Positions 33,337 to 38,667 of a stretch of 64,000 bases of DNA are shown one piece after another. The notes under the pieces were generated by a model, which was not told where the DNA came from, did no database searches, and saw only the letters and a program-made list of their open reading frames with translations. Source of the stretch: Pseudomonas hygromyciniae. Lineage in GTDB: Bacteria > Pseudomonadota > Gammaproteobacteria > Pseudomonadales > Pseudomonadaceae. Position 1 is the first letter of the stretch, and each line of letters starts with the position of its first letter. The DNA lies in assembly GCF_016925675.1 (NCBI RefSeq), contig NZ_CP070506.1, positions 4,648,501 through 4,712,500 on the forward strand, read 5' to 3'. A program made the translations under genes and the position numbers.

Positions 33337-33669
33337 TCACTTTGAATCCGGAGGCTGGTTGACCCCGATGCGCTTGGCGGCCCAGCGCTCATACAGGCCG
33401 ATGGCAACATCGGCGCCGGCCATGGCGGTCAAGCACCCCAGAGCGCCGGCCGTCCAGATCGACATGCCGGCGGCGTACAGCAACATCAACGCGGAAACCC
33501 CGCACACCATGCATGCCCCGGAACGCAGGGCCAGGCGGCGGACCAGCGACCAACCGCGGGCGCCCTCCTTGTCGGCCCGCCACATTTCCCCGGACACGCC
33601 GCCGATCAGGGCCAGAATAATCACCAGCCAGATAGGCATTTCTGCCAACGCTTGCTGCTCGTTTGTCAT
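33337..33669 (-). CDS. Tailocin holin
   Basis: 110 aa with three predicted membrane segments (about residues 12-27, 49-68 and 72-90), size and topology of phage holins. ATG at 33669 follows AGGAGG at 6-bp spacing. First gene of the tailocin operon, as in R-pyocins. Controls timing of lysozyme release. Confidence 0.82.
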   Translation of the reverse strand: MTNEQQALAEMPIWLVIILALIGGVSGEMWRADKEGARGWSLVRRLALRSGACMVCGVSALMLLYAAGMSIWTAGALGCLTAMAGADVAIGLYERWAAKRIGVNQPPDSK

Positions 33670-33751
33670 GTCACGCCTCCTGGAATGCGTAAAACCGGCA
33701 GGTGGCCGGTGCTTTGATAAATAAGTGGTTGGGTGTATCGGTAGGCATTCC

Positions 33752-33776
33752 AAAAAGCCCGGAGGCCCGGGCTTTT
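33752..33776 (-). terminator. Terminator-like hairpin in the tailocin leader
   Basis: On the minus strand: AAAAGCCCGG-GCCT-CCGGGCTTTTT, ending in five T. It lies between the leader promoter and the holin gene, so it could stop transcription before the operon unless overridden. Confidence 0.65.
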
Positions 33777-33977
33777 CAGTAATGCGGTCCGTGCGATCTT
33801 TCGGCGCTACTGGCGCGGTACGGATCTTTCCTCGATGTTTTTCCGACCACGATCCCTGTCTGCCGGATAACTGCTTCTGGTGCTTTACGCTGCACACCCG
33901 GGTCAGTTGCCAACCCTCTGAACCGTCAAGGCCGGTTCATCGCTGCCTGTTGTAAAACCGTGAAACTAAAGAGCGTC

Positions 33978-34079
33978 GGCATCCTTGCCGGTGTTGCCTG
34001 GCGTCCTTGCCATCACTCGATGGCGTCCATGCCAGTGTTGCGTGCCTTCCTTGTCTTCCTTGGCAGCATCCTTGCCACC
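33978..34079 (-). promoter_or_regulatory. Array of six CANGGANG (RsmA/CsrA-like) motifs with 22-nt period
   Basis: On the minus (transcribed) strand, CANGGANG occurs six times; plus-strand starts are 33980, 34002, 34024, 34046, 34055 and 34067. Four lie at exact 22-bp steps. Several are GGC-ANGGAN-GCC hairpins with ANGGAN in a hexaloop, the known shape of high-affinity RsmE/CsrA sites. They fall in the leader downstream of the predicted tailocin promoter. RsmA/RsmE binding is inferred. Confidence 0.65.
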
Positions 34080-34115
34080 TCCACCAGGCCTTGTTGGCTG
34101 GCTTGAGATGGAGAA

Positions 34116-34131
34116 TATGCATGTATGCATA
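34116..34131. promoter_or_regulatory. Repressor operator 1
   Basis: TATGC-ATGTAT-GCATA, palindromic, between -35 and -10 of the tailocin promoter. Shares WATGC-N6-GCATW with three other sites around the repressor gene. Confidence 0.65.
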
Positions 34132-34136
34132 TACAG
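34121..34136. promoter_or_regulatory. Near-consensus LexA box overlapping operator 1
   Basis: On the minus strand CTGTATATGCATACAT: CTGT-N8-ACAG with one outer mismatch. It lies within the tailocin promoter and may add direct SOS control. Confidence 0.45.
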
Positions 34137-34138
34137 TC

Positions 34139-34154
34139 AATGCATAAATGCATT
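34139..34154. promoter_or_regulatory. Repressor operator 2
   Basis: AATGC-ATAAAT-GCATT, a near-perfect 16-bp palindrome overlapping the -35 end of the tailocin promoter. Confidence 0.65.
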
Positions 34155-34169
34155 TAATTTTGCAATTGA

Positions 34170-34185
34170 AATGCACAAACGCATT
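34170..34185. promoter_or_regulatory. Repressor operator 3
   Basis: AATGC-ACAAAC-GCATT, same WATGC-N6-GCATW pattern, upstream of the tailocin promoter. Confidence 0.6.
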
Positions 34186-34226
34186 AATTCCTTGGGCAGC
34201 GGGCACTTGGCGGTTTTCCACAGGCG

Positions 34227-34253
34227 AAAAAAAGCCCGCTCTCAGGCGGGCCG
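34227..34253 (-). terminator. Intrinsic terminator of the repressor gene
   Basis: On the minus strand GCCCGC-CTGAGA-GCGGGC followed by seven T, 18 bp after the repressor stop. It insulates the tailocin promoter from repressor transcription. Confidence 0.88.
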
Positions 34254-34270
34254 TTTCTTACAGATAAGGT

Positions 34271-34999
34271 TTAGCGGGCGTACATGCCCCACCAGAAAAC
34301 GTGGCCGAGAATGCTGATCTGCTCCTCCTGGATATCCTGGAAGCTGTAGTCCTCATCCGGATGCTCATCGCGATTGAAACTGCGCAGGCGGATCCCCGAA
34401 GGCAGGCGATAGAGCTGTTTGACCCGCAGTTGACCGTTGTGGTTGATGGCATACAAGTCACCATCCACGATATCGCCAATCCCGCTCTTACCGGCGTTCA
34501 CCCCCACCGTCGCCCCATCGCGCAACACCGGCAGCATGCTGTTGCCACGCACCGTCACACACTTGGCCTGGTCGAACTGCACACCGTTATGCCGCAGGCT
34601 GCGCTTGCCAAAACGCAGGCTGGCCTTCTCGCTTTCCTCGATGACGAATCTTCCTGATCCAGCAGCCAATTCAACCTCGCGCAAAAAGGGGATCGACACC
34701 TCGTCATCATTAACGGGCGTGTCGTCGTCCCACAGGCTTATATCCTTGAGCTCCGAATGCATCGGGTCGCGCTCTTCCTGCCACGCCGACCCCGCGCGCC
34801 CACGCAACTGGTCGGTGCTGACCCGAAAATAATCGGCGATACGCGAGATGTGCTTGTCCGACGGATCAACGATCTTGCCGCTGAGAATCCGGGACAGAGT
34901 GGATTGAGGCACGCCGGTACGCCGGTGAAGCTCCGTGGGGGAGATCCCGTCGCGATCGAGCAGCTCTCTTAAGACGATTGAAACGTTGCGTTTTTGCAT
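34271..34999 (-). CDS. Tailocin S24-family repressor (CI/PrtR-like)
   Basis: 242 aa. N-terminal HTH (about 14-40: GISPTELHRRTGVPQSTLSRILSG), then an S24 LexA-type domain. Predicted self-cleavage at Ala113-Gly114 (ELAAGSG); catalytic Ser154 (RGNSM) and Lys194 (LRVKQL). RecA filaments would trigger cleavage and derepress the tailocin, as PrtR does for pyocins. No prtN-like activator gene is present nearby. ATG at 34999 chosen because the HTH follows directly. An operator at 35035 suggests self-repression. Confidence 0.9.
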   Translation of the reverse strand: MQKRNVSIVLRELLDRDGISPTELHRRTGVPQSTLSRILSGKIVDPSDKHISRIADYFRVSTDQLRGRAGSAWQEERDPMHSELKDISLWDDDTPVNDDEVSIPFLREVELAAGSGRFVIEESEKASLRFGKRSLRHNGVQFDQAKCVTVRGNSMLPVLRDGATVGVNAGKSGIGDIVDGDLYAINHNGQLRVKQLYRLPSGIRLRSFNRDEHPDEDYSFQDIQEEQISILGHVFWWGMYAR

Positions 35000-35034
35000 A
35001 ATCGGGATAGTGACGGGAGTTTTTGGGGTTGGCA

Positions 35035-35050
35035 AATGCTAATTTGCATA
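35035..35050. promoter_or_regulatory. Repressor operator 4 (autoregulatory)
   Basis: AATGC-TAATTT-GCATA, WATGC-N6-GCATW, 35 bp upstream of the repressor ATG. A possible minus-strand promoter (TTTACA at 35072-35077, AAATAT at 35048-35053, 18-bp spacer) overlaps it. Confidence 0.6.
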
Positions 35051-35390: not shown

Positions 35391-37982
35391 ATGAGTAAAA
35401 ACACGTCTGATCTGTCCTCCCACACCCCGATGATGCAGCAGTACTGGCGCCTGAAAAACCAGCACCCTGATCAGTTGATGTTCTATCGCATGGGCGACTT
35501 CTACGAGATCTTCTATGAAGACGCGAAGAAGGCAGCCAAGCTGCTGGATATCACCCTGACCGCGCGCGGGCAGTCGGCTGGGCAGGCGATTCCGATGTGT
35601 GGGATTCCTTATCACTCGCTGGAAGGTTATCTGGCCAAGCTGGTCAAGCTCGGTGAGTCGGTGGTGATCTGTGAGCAGATCGGCGACCCGGCGACCAGCA
35701 AGGGCCCCGTGGAACGTCAGGTGGTGCGCATCATTACCCCGGGGACGGTAAGTGATGAGGCGCTGCTGGATGAGCGGCGTGACAACCTTATCGCGGCGGT
35801 GCTGGGGGATGAGCGGCTGTTCGGCCTGGCGGTGCTGGATATCACCAGTGGCAATTTCACGGTCCTGGAAATCCAGGGTTGGGAAAATCTGCTGGCGGAA
35901 CTGGAGCGCATCAATCCGGTGGAATTGATGATCCCGGATGACTGGCCCAAGGACTTGCCGGCAGAAAAACGCCGTGGGGCCAAGCGTCGTGCGCCGTGGG
36001 ACTTTGAGCGCGATTCGGCGCTGAAAAGTCTGTGCCAGCAATTTTCCGTACAGGATCTGAAGGGGTTTGGTTGCGAGACTCTGACCCTGGCCATCGGCGC
36101 CGCCGGTTGCCTGCTCAACTACGCCAAGGAAACCCAGCGCACCGCCCTGCCCCATTTGCGCAGCCTGCGCCATGAGCGCCTGGACGACACGGTGGTGCTC
36201 GATGGGGCCAGCCGACGCAATCTGGAGCTGGACACCAACCTGGCCGGTGGGCGCGACAATACCCTGCAATCGGTGGTGGACCGTTGCCAGACCGCCATGG
36301 GCAGCCGCTTGCTGACCCGTTGGCTGAATCGCCCGCTGCGCGACTTGACCGTGCTGCAGGCACGCCAGTCGTCTATTACCTGCCTGCTGGACGGCTACCG
36401 CTTTGAAAAGCTGCAACCGCAGCTCAAGGAAATCGGCGATATCGAGCGGATTCTCGCGCGAATCGGCCTGCGTAATGCCCGCCCGCGAGACTTGGCGCGC
36501 CTGCGTGACGCACTGGGCGTACTGCCCGAGCTGCAACAGGCGATGACCGAACTGGAAGCGCCGCACCTGCAGCAGCTTGCCGTCACCGCCGGCACCTACC
36601 CGGAACTGGCTGCGTTGCTGGAAAAAGCCATTATCGATAACCCGCCGGCGATCATCCGCGACGGCGGCGTGCTCAAGACCGGCTACGACAGCGAGCTGGA
36701 CGAGCTGCAAGCCTTGAGCGAGAACGCCGGGCAGTTCCTGATCGACCTGGAAGCCCGCGAAAAAGCCCGTACCGGCCTGGCCAACCTGAAGGTCGGCTAC
36801 AACCGCGTGCACGGCTACTTTATCGAGTTGCCGAGCAAGCAGGCCGAACAGGCACCGATCGATTACCAGCGCCGCCAGACGCTCAAAGGTGCCGAGCGCT
36901 TTATTACACCCGAGCTGAAAGAATTCGAAGACAAGGCACTGTCGGCCAAGAGCCGCGCCCTGGCCCGAGAAAAGATGCTCTACGAGGCCCTGCTCGAAGA
37001 CCTGATCGGCAAGCTGGCACCGTTGCAGGACACCGCCGCGGCCCTGGCCGAGCTGGATGTGCTGAGCAACCTGGCCGAACGCGCCCTGAACCTTGACCTG
37101 AACTGCCCGCGCTTTGTCAGCGAGCCGTGCATGCGCATTGTCCAGGGTCGCCATCCGGTGGTGGAGCAAGTGCTGACCACCCCGTTCGTGGCCAACGACC
37201 TGTCGCTGGATGACGATACGCGCATGCTGGTGATCACCGGTCCGAACATGGGCGGTAAATCCACCTACATGCGCCAGACCGCATTGATCGTGTTGCTGGC
37301 CCATATCGGCAGCTTCGTGCCGGCGGCCAGTTGCGAGTTGTCCCTGGTGGACCGCATCTTCACCCGGATCGGCTCCAGCGATGACCTGGCCGGTGGCCGT
37401 TCGACCTTTATGGTGGAAATGAGCGAGACCGCCAATATCCTGCACAACGCCACTGACCGCAGCCTGGTGCTGATGGATGAAGTGGGGCGCGGCACCAGCA
37501 CTTTCGACGGCCTGTCCCTGGCCTGGGCTGCCGCCGAGCGCCTGGCGCACCTGCGGGCCTATACGCTGTTCGCTACCCACTACTTCGAACTGACCGTGCT
37601 GCCGGAAAGCGAGCCGCTGGTGGCCAACGTGCATCTCAATGCCACCGAGCACAACGAGCGCATCGTGTTCCTGCACCATGTGCTGCCTGGGCCGGCCAGC
37701 CAGAGTTACGGCCTGGCCGTGGCACAACTGGCCGGTGTGCCGAACGACGTGATCCTGCGTGCCCGCGAGCACCTCAGCCGCCTGGAAACCACGGCCCTGC
37801 CCCATGAAACCGTGGTTGCCAGCCCAGCCAAGGCCGCTAGCAAACCTGCGGCACCGCACCAGAGCGATATGTTCGCCAGCCTGCCCCACCCGGTACTGGA
37901 TGAGTTGGCAAAGCTTGACCTGGATGACTTGACACCACGAAAAGCGCTCGAAATGTTATATGCACTGAAGACTCGGATATAA
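35391..37982 (+). CDS. mutS: DNA mismatch repair protein MutS
   Basis: 863 aa. Mismatch-binding domain I has the Phe-X-Glu motif in [13 protein letters not shown] (about 34-46). The C-terminal ABC-type ATPase has Walker [10 protein letters not shown] (about 617-625), [12 protein letters not shown] signature and the FATHYFELT His. Forms one border of the tailocin locus; fdxA follows. Confidence 0.98.
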
Positions 37983-38527: not shown

Positions 38528-38659
38528 AAAAAAAGGGGCGGTTTGACCCGCCCACATTTTTTCCCTAGTCCCTGTGTTCCTTTTCATCGTCCTGATGAAT
38601 CGCATCCTGCGAGGTTCCCTGAGTCATCGTTCCTTGATGACTGTGTCAATCCGTGGACA
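38528..38659 (-). ncRNA. rsmZ: RsmZ, GacA-dependent sRNA that sequesters RsmA/RsmE
   Basis: About 132 nt. On the minus strand the 5' end TGTCCACGGATTGACACAG and internal AAGGA, GGGAA, CAGGATG and CAGGACG motifs match RsmZ of P. protegens/P. fluorescens. It has repeated exposed GGA sites, a GGGCGG hairpin and a T7 terminator (38526-38553). A TAATAT -10 box (38668-38673) sits 9 bp upstream, and a GacA box lies about 180 bp upstream, the known spacing. It is located next to fdxA as in other pseudomonads. Confidence 0.88.
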
Positions 38660-38667
38660 CAGGACTG

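Follow-up and report, generated by a model that had tools for sequence, protein, structure and literature searches.

We found that the 5' leader of a Pseudomonas tailocin operon carries six CANGGANG motifs on its transcribed strand, an array that is real and far outside chance. The array may mark an Rsm-type leader and, together with an antitermination-type element lying below it, perhaps something more. The best overall explanation, to which we give about an even chance, would be an Rsm platform gating an antitermination-type leader before the lysis genes. The locus in the window (that is, the whole 64,000-nt stretch of DNA analysed) contains the following features, listed in the order of transcription.

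34271..35035, minus strand: S24-type tailocin repressor gene (Cro/CI-type HTH and Peptidase_S24; Pfam PF01381 and PF00717), with the array downstream and codirectional.
34252-34233, minus strand: terminator-like hairpin of the repressor gene (terminator/promoter scan).
34117..34153: two ATGCAT-N2-ATGCAT palindromes (34153-34140 and 34130-34117), at the -35 and in the spacer (read from the sequence).
34112..34140, minus strand: predicted promoter TTGACT-17-TATTCT (promoter scan and aligned tailocin leaders).
33977..34079, minus strand: Rsm-type array of six CANGGANG sites (motif count, simulations, relatives and letter constraint).
33967..33974, minus strand: boxA-like sequence GCTCTTTA (leader alignment; match to the rrn/nut-type consensus).
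33829..33946, minus strand: conserved structured RNA element with four helices (covariation across copies).
33752..33776, minus strand: terminator-like hairpin AAAAGCCCGG-N4-CCGGGCTTTT(T), between the leader and the first gene (read from the sequence).
33337..33669, minus strand: holin, the first gene of the tailocin operon (Pfam PF16085).

Phage-tail genes follow the holin on the minus strand. Ten window proteins were submitted to Pfam, and seven had matches (repressor, holin, baseplate V, baseplate J, tail protein I, tail fibre and tube FII), the other three having none. A homologue of the repressor is annotated as prtR in EU982300. The promoter scan found TTGACT-17-TATTCT as the sole promoter-like site within 33600-34300, which bears out the original prediction, made from the window alone, of a promoter just upstream of the array. 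Transcription of the leader is expected to start near 34104, and the array begins 37 nt past the -10. The ATGCAT palindromes are likely operators of the repressor; similar sequences were present in array-bearing and array-less tailocin leaders alike in the leader alignment. The downstream terminator-like hairpin that had also been predicted is present in the sequence at 33776-33752, with a similar hairpin in most aligned leader rows reaching that far, but it was not flagged by the rule of the terminator scan.

The six motifs lie on the minus strand at 34067-34074, 34055-34062, 34046-34053, 34024-34031, 34002-34009 and 33980-33987 (5' ends at 34074, 34062, 34053, 34031, 34009 and 33987), and five of the six sites have the form AAGGA. 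The window as a whole was not enriched in CANGGANG (48 observed versus 43.6 expected). Among 200 simulated 64-kb windows (Markov-1), the maximum number of motifs per 105 nt was one in 94 cases, two in 105 and three in a single case, and 20,000 simulations of 140 nt with local composition gave at most four motifs, once. The count of six motifs in about 100 nt of the transcribed strand stands as first noted, as does the spacing of exactly 22 nt between the starts of the last four. Clustering of ANGGA on the transcribed strand, as in leaders bound by CsrA/RsmA, is thus observed here.

To characterize the distribution of the array, a DNA search with 33740-34260 was carried out over 398 sampled Pseudomonas genomes, 269 of which matched; the listed matches were either near full-length or confined to the part below the array. 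At least 64 of the 398 genomes (the window's own included) carry the array at the orthologous site, and all of these 64 have the tailocin repressor upstream (91-99% identical) and a holin downstream. The array occurs in dozens of Pseudomonas species at the same place after the tailocin promoter; named records include P. veronii, P. rhodesiae, P. marginalis, P. lactis, P. grimontii and P. trivialis, and one record is labelled P. viridiflava. Among the 63 leaders with the exact boxA string, six motifs were found in 45, five in 17 and four in one; the array of locus L067 has six. Alignment across relatives had been suggested as a check of the original prediction, and both motifs and spacing proved to be kept at the same site. 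In locus L009 the array is kept and the exact boxA string is absent. A leader of P. sivasensis (L173, reverse strand from ~6957) has an intact array, but GCTTTTTAG stands in place of its boxA and the element looks damaged; it represents a natural array without the antitermination part.

For comparison, an array-less set of 26 leaders was assembled, consisting of 25 genomes chosen by hand from the matches (a non-random choice) plus EU982300; locus L070, with two motifs and no tailocin repressor, was excluded. No CANGGANG could be found above the element core in any of the 26, and the promoter, the first transcript nucleotides, the boxA and the element are common to the array leaders and those array-less ones that were aligned. 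In the repressor tree, one branch separates the 64 array from the 26 array-less members (support 99/89), and the split was held by 98% of 200 bootstrap trees, in a bootstrap that had not settled. For the sampled leaders, this single-branch split points to one gain or loss of the array. The excluded L070 (G098:C1:2434221-2434638) is a second leader in its genome, with a shortened two-motif array and no match to the tailocin repressor, and shows the array, as a remnant or in a related form, outside the tailocin. As a further observation, a Mu-like Com zinc-ribbon gene lies between leader and holin in several array-less loci (L031, 2025-2333, PF10122; L072, L076, L080 and L083), and a Com-like match follows the holin in some array leaders, for example, L010, L015 and L017.

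Similar arrays were also sought elsewhere. A contig scan for three GGC-ANGGAN-GCC hairpins returned at least 119 stretches, and 26 loci among the matches listed resemble the tailocin leader in having a boxA or element downstream. Of the other 117 matches, 85 fall in an open frame and 32 outside (L173 among the latter), and arrays of this sort may also occur in another class of leader. Three loci (L149, L152 and L195, the first two from Omnitrophota) contain GGC-ANGGAN-GCC repeats with a regular spacing of 37-41 nt, perhaps CRISPR-like or other repeats.

The pattern of substitution within the array was then measured in the 64 leaders, which had been found by DNA similarity without use of the motif. 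Differences from consensus amounted to 1.4% at the fixed motif letters, 15.9% at the N letters and 5.2% at the other array columns; column permutations were as extreme in 13 of 20,000 for the low rate at fixed letters and in none of 20,000 for the high rate at N letters, figures that, given kinship among the sequences, measure the pattern and are not exact probabilities. A larger set of 111 distinct arrays (196 loci) gave 1.3%, 14.0% and 4.9%, respectively, with one permutation in 20,000 as extreme for each contrast. This set, which lacks L009, L039 and L065, was partly motif-selected (the search string fixed part of the last motif and boxA, and additional loci were picked up through the motif); for this reason the tests of conservation and distance were run again with the 64 similarity-found leaders, and gave the same outcome. 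The letters that are kept (C, A, GGA and G) and those that are free (N) correspond to the RsmA/CsrA reading code, and the second site is the weakest of the six. Constrained letters around a free N, as in a leader bound by CsrA/RsmA, are thus observed across the 64 leaders, and the Rsm reading of the original prediction is supported in part: relatives retain the motifs with their spacing, and variation falls on the letters that RsmA/CsrA leave free. From these sequence patterns, we consider it quite probable that an Rsm protein binds the array.

Two other explanations of the repeats bear on the same data. If the array were a functionless young repeat whose copies are alike by descent, its confinement to a single side of the dividing branch in the repressor tree would be expected; however, letter rates differ along the Rsm code, and at least four motifs are kept in all 64 clade members examined, which makes this origin extremely unlikely. 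It is also very unlikely that the TGGC-N6-GCCA palindromes, about two helical turns apart, form an operator array for a DNA-binding protein. Such an array would agree with the near-invariant stems and with the spacing across relatives, where intervals of 22 or 23 bp predominate among the last four sites. On the other hand, the loop centre is asymmetric and is kept even in the two palindrome-free sites, the N letters within the motif are free, and the six sites are codirectional, with no reverse-strand motif copy in any of the 111 arrays.

Several motifs had been predicted to sit in hexaloop hairpins. An ANGGAN hexaloop can indeed be drawn at four of the six sites, on stems of 6, 4, 4 and 4 pairs, and the 20,000 local simulations never gave more than two hexaloops with at least three pairs. 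RNAalifold drew four hexaloop hairpins unprompted on the 111 arrays. The predicted fold of the whole leader, however, disfavours the hairpins at sites 4, 5 and 6: the second-pair probability was 0.66 at site 1, 0.00 at sites 4 and 5 and 0.11 at site 6, and for sites 4 and 5 one long stem with an ANGGAN/ANGGAN internal loop is preferred. The separate-hairpin model shows double changes in 2 of 23 pairs (4 cells), and the long-stem model, with a 7-pair inner stem for sites 4 and 5, in 3 of 26 pairs (9 cells). Since most of its double changes sit in the inner stem, the long-stem form is maybe as real as the separate hairpins. A test of covariation had been proposed along with the hairpins, and no real covariation could be observed, the stems being almost invariant across relatives. 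Hexaloop pairing is thus unproven by covariation, and this line of proof was dropped given the small stem variation. The predicted probability that GGA is unpaired in the window leader was 0.82-0.86 at five sites and 0.46 at the last, with a mean of 0.79 in the predicted folds of 62 array leaders. Accessibility of GGA is likely in these models, the hairpins of the array are possible, and the exact fold is less certain.

Below the array, GCTCTTTA resembles a boxA of the rrn/nut type in its match to the consensus. The last motif starts 13 nt before it in 62 of 63 leaders, the exception having lost its last CANGGANG. In the larger set the same 13 nt are seen in 128 of 130 distinct leaders, whereas the distance from boxA to element varies from 28 to 45 nt. 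The string [CT]TCTTTA occurs within 110 nt above 343 of the 377 element copies with enough upstream sequence, a count that includes duplicates and comes from a scan that partly had boxA in its pattern. The element itself, ~120 nt long, was analysed in 28 copies (the window's and 27 less than 90% alike, picked by script) with four hand-drawn helices. In this alignment 99.0% of 588 cells were paired, and changes on both sides were seen in 11 of 21 pairs (51 double-changed cells), whereas shuffles gave 13.3 such cells on average and none of 500 reached 51; sliding the partner strand lowered pairing to 52% or less. The structured RNA at 33829-33946 is real. Neither in the window nor in six relatives did the element match Rfam at the gathering score, and a permissive Rfam search of the leader returned weak hits only, which were taken for chance.

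A covariance model of the element found it in 35 of 59 Pseudomonas genomes and, among 145 genomes of the order (few of them of the family), in the window's own genome only. It was located near repressor genes in the phages PseuP_224, Orimi01 and Medea1 and in many viral contigs, and is shared with array-less tailocins; loci with the element include L033, L034 and L404-L429. The element is thus a candidate new RNA family of Pseudomonas tailocins and phages, specific to Pseudomonas in the samples searched. A second copy in the source genome (G000:C1:3533557-3533685, L492) has GCTCTTTGG in place of the boxA string and presumably belongs to a prophage leader. As in nut/put-type RNAs, the boxA lies near the transcript start and conserved RNA secondary structure follows it, and by its place, boxA and structure we propose that the element may be a nut/put-like antitermination RNA. 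The boxA-like sequence and the element were absent from the original prediction, and their presence changes the likely mechanism.

The array lies ~300 nt above the holin start and does not overlap a ribosome-binding site, and few copies of CANGGANG occur in the first 300 nt past the core start (an average of 0.14 over the 64 array leaders). An RsmA/CsrA site that overlaps the ribosome-binding site is common but not universal, and at such a distance the array would not act in the usual way, by blocking the ribosome. We propose instead that the array would act as a multi-site platform for RsmA/RsmE/RsmI in the tailocin 5' leader. DNA damage would remove the S24-type repressor and the leader would be transcribed; Rsm dimers would bind the nascent array, whose last site abuts the boxA, and bound Rsm would hinder Nus-factor loading or the antiterminated polymerase state at boxA and element. 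Most transcripts would then end at the terminator before the holin, with a short leader RNA that soaks up Rsm protein as a by-product, and read-through to the lysis and tail genes would occur once leader transcripts and RsmX/Y/Z together exceed the free Rsm pool, which would take a prolonged damage signal plus an active Gac system. In this scheme we infer termination, binding in the cell, its repressive direction, the antitermination route and the titration threshold. The chances that the array acts as a cis gate at all seem to us slightly below even, and the routing of such gating through boxA is doubtful.

The main reason for preferring a mechanism that involves boxA is the fixed 13-nt distance between last motif and boxA. 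Counting against this route, L173 (degraded boxA and element) and L009 (no exact boxA) keep the array. A refolding switch at boxA was unsupported: when the motifs were forced open, mean predicted boxA access remained essentially the same (0.52 before and 0.50 after; of 62 array leaders, 3 showed a rise and 7 a fall), predicted access in array-less leaders being 0.30 (24 counted). Steric hindrance or effects on bound factors would thus be needed. RNAalifold also paired motif 3 (AAGGA) with boxA (UCUUU), with zero compensating changes, and such pairing may be regarded as a minor idea only. An alternative that dispenses with boxA is an effect on stability or on early Rho termination, in which Rsm on the leader would shield the 5' end or expose a Rho site and thereby alter the amount of operon mRNA. 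CsrA and Rho act together in the pgaA example. The TATTCT string was located in 114 distinct leaders, and in all but one of these (113) the first motif starts 35-38 nt past the -10. Action of RsmA/CsrA proteins on mRNA translation and stability is described in PMC3791407. This route would leave the fixed boxA distance unexplained, and we regard it as fairly improbable.

A different possibility is that the terminated leader, ~350 nt in length, accumulates on induction and titrates Rsm in trans, as RsmX/Y/Z do, thereby turning on Gac/Rsm-controlled traits while the cell is damaged. The window also has a true RsmZ gene, at 38528-38661 on the minus strand (Rfam RF00166, 119.2 bits), 4.5 kb from the array, and the large ORF between them (35391-37982) is, judging from its protein sequence, presumably mutS. 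The array equals this RsmZ in number of ANGGA sites (six), one of its Rfam hits, weak and below cut-off, is to the RsmZ model (17.2 bits, E 0.13, against a gathering cut-off of 44), and a terminator-like hairpin closes the leader ahead of the first gene. Retention of the array in L173 despite its degraded boxA and element is also in line with a sponge. However, no other Rsm family reached the Rfam threshold in the array, and the resemblance to RsmZ is no more than the motifs give: among 500 mono-nucleotide shuffles 43 attained the local alignment score of 20, as did 125 of 500 shuffles with the motifs fixed, and derivation of the array from RsmZ was rejected. Moreover, the promoter would be repressed in healthy cells and induced cells would be near lysis, and the studied arrays, L070 excepted, lie in cis to the operon at a fixed boxA distance for which a sponge would have no need. 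We hold a main role as a sponge to be unlikely.

Rsm proteins bind ANGGA presented atop hairpins, and the source genome encodes four proteins of the CsrA family. The gene for the fourth lies at 1498-1674 of a second contig (L489, ~250 kb), beside a ParB-like gene; this contig is likely a plasmid. The encoded protein is 87.9% identical to CsrA of plasmids NC_004444, NC_011838 and NC_021506 and 89.7% identical to one in NZ_CP039632, and in this way the array of the tailocin could come into contact with an Rsm protein from a plasmid. Purified RsmQ binds all ANGGA forms at hairpin tops, according to a passage of PMC9928087, and chromosomal RsmE bound effectively only ATGGA and AGGGA, in a passage of the same source that does not cover RsmA. 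The odds for binding and for the gate are slightly lowered by the poor binding of RsmE to AAGGA, the commonest form in the array. In a further excerpt of this paper, deletion of plasmid rsmQ had little effect on transcripts but altered many proteins. Its main text does not contain the words tailocin, prophage, phage or bacteriocin, and the terms pyocin, prtN, phage and holin are all absent from the main text of PMC6061880. In P. fluorescens SBW25, the tailocin holin is reported as a cause of plasmid cost, and among 50 genes induced by the plasmid only 6 were independently lowered when gacS was lost (PMC8544851). The latter figure does not show strong Gac dependence of the plasmid-induced set, and its relevance hinges on whether SBW25 has the array. 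Among the matches listed for full-text open-licence literature, in which longer result lists were partly covered, we found no tailocin or pyocin leader under RsmA/CsrA, in agreement with the earlier statement that no described tailocin leader of this form was known.

Tailocin release kills the producer, and the SOS/repressor step is the control usually considered. The sequence patterns above suggest that this suicidal weapon may also be controlled at the RNA level besides DNA damage, with the array adding a second key to what makes a damaged cell complete tailocin release, namely the Gac/Rsm network, under which other antagonistic traits also stand. The array would give plasmid-borne Rsm proteins a defined point of contact with the tailocin, and its six short sites make the control of tailocin release directly testable. 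It is rather unlikely, in our assessment, that the leader is a two-part RNA device, of a type absent from the papers searched, in which one clade added a six-site Rsm platform to a phage-derived processive antitermination RNA. If this were true, weapon release would need both DNA damage and Gac/Rsm relief, and an Rsm protein brought by a plasmid could bind the array and silence the weapon.

Several known systems resemble parts of this leader. CsrA/RsmA-controlled Pseudomonas mRNA leaders of the hcnA type have ANGGA in the 5' leader. The tailocin leader is similar in this respect, some of the motifs in both lying in possible hexaloops, but it has six sites far from known start codons, adjoins a boxA-like sequence and a structured element, and precedes a phage-derived operon. 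RsmX, RsmY and RsmZ, like the array, contain several spaced ANGGA motifs, many in possible hairpins and with GGA predicted to be accessible; in contrast to them, the array has no Rfam match at the gathering score and lies in the leader of a repressor-controlled operon rather than in a free GacA-driven gene. Lambda nut, HK022 put and rrn boxA are antitermination leaders, which share with the tailocin leader an early boxA, a conserved stem-loop RNA and a terminator-like hairpin before the operon, whereas the tailocin element differs in sequence, has several helices and was found in Pseudomonas only in the samples searched. CsrA control of the colicin lysis gene cel was reportedly described by Yang et al. 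in 2010. The role of boxA is also treated in PMC4807359. In Serratia, CsrA controls prophage activation (Wilf et al., 2013, as cited in a passage of PMC7366521), so that a CsrA-family protein acts on a resident phage element there, as in our reading of the tailocin, although that passage concerns no tailocin leader. In colicin E2, CsrA binds the lysis-gene mRNA, and modelling gives a threshold and a delay after SOS induction, the delay being also seen in experiments according to the authors (excerpts of PMC5157957). Colicin E2/E7 cel, as presented there, and the tailocin operon as we read it would both be SOS-induced bacteriocin systems with the lysis step under CsrA-type control; the colicin target is the lysis-gene mRNA of a plasmid, whereas the tailocin sites would be six leader motifs of a chromosomal phage-tail operon. 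The threshold and delay described in those excerpts indicate that such logic exists in another bacteriocin.
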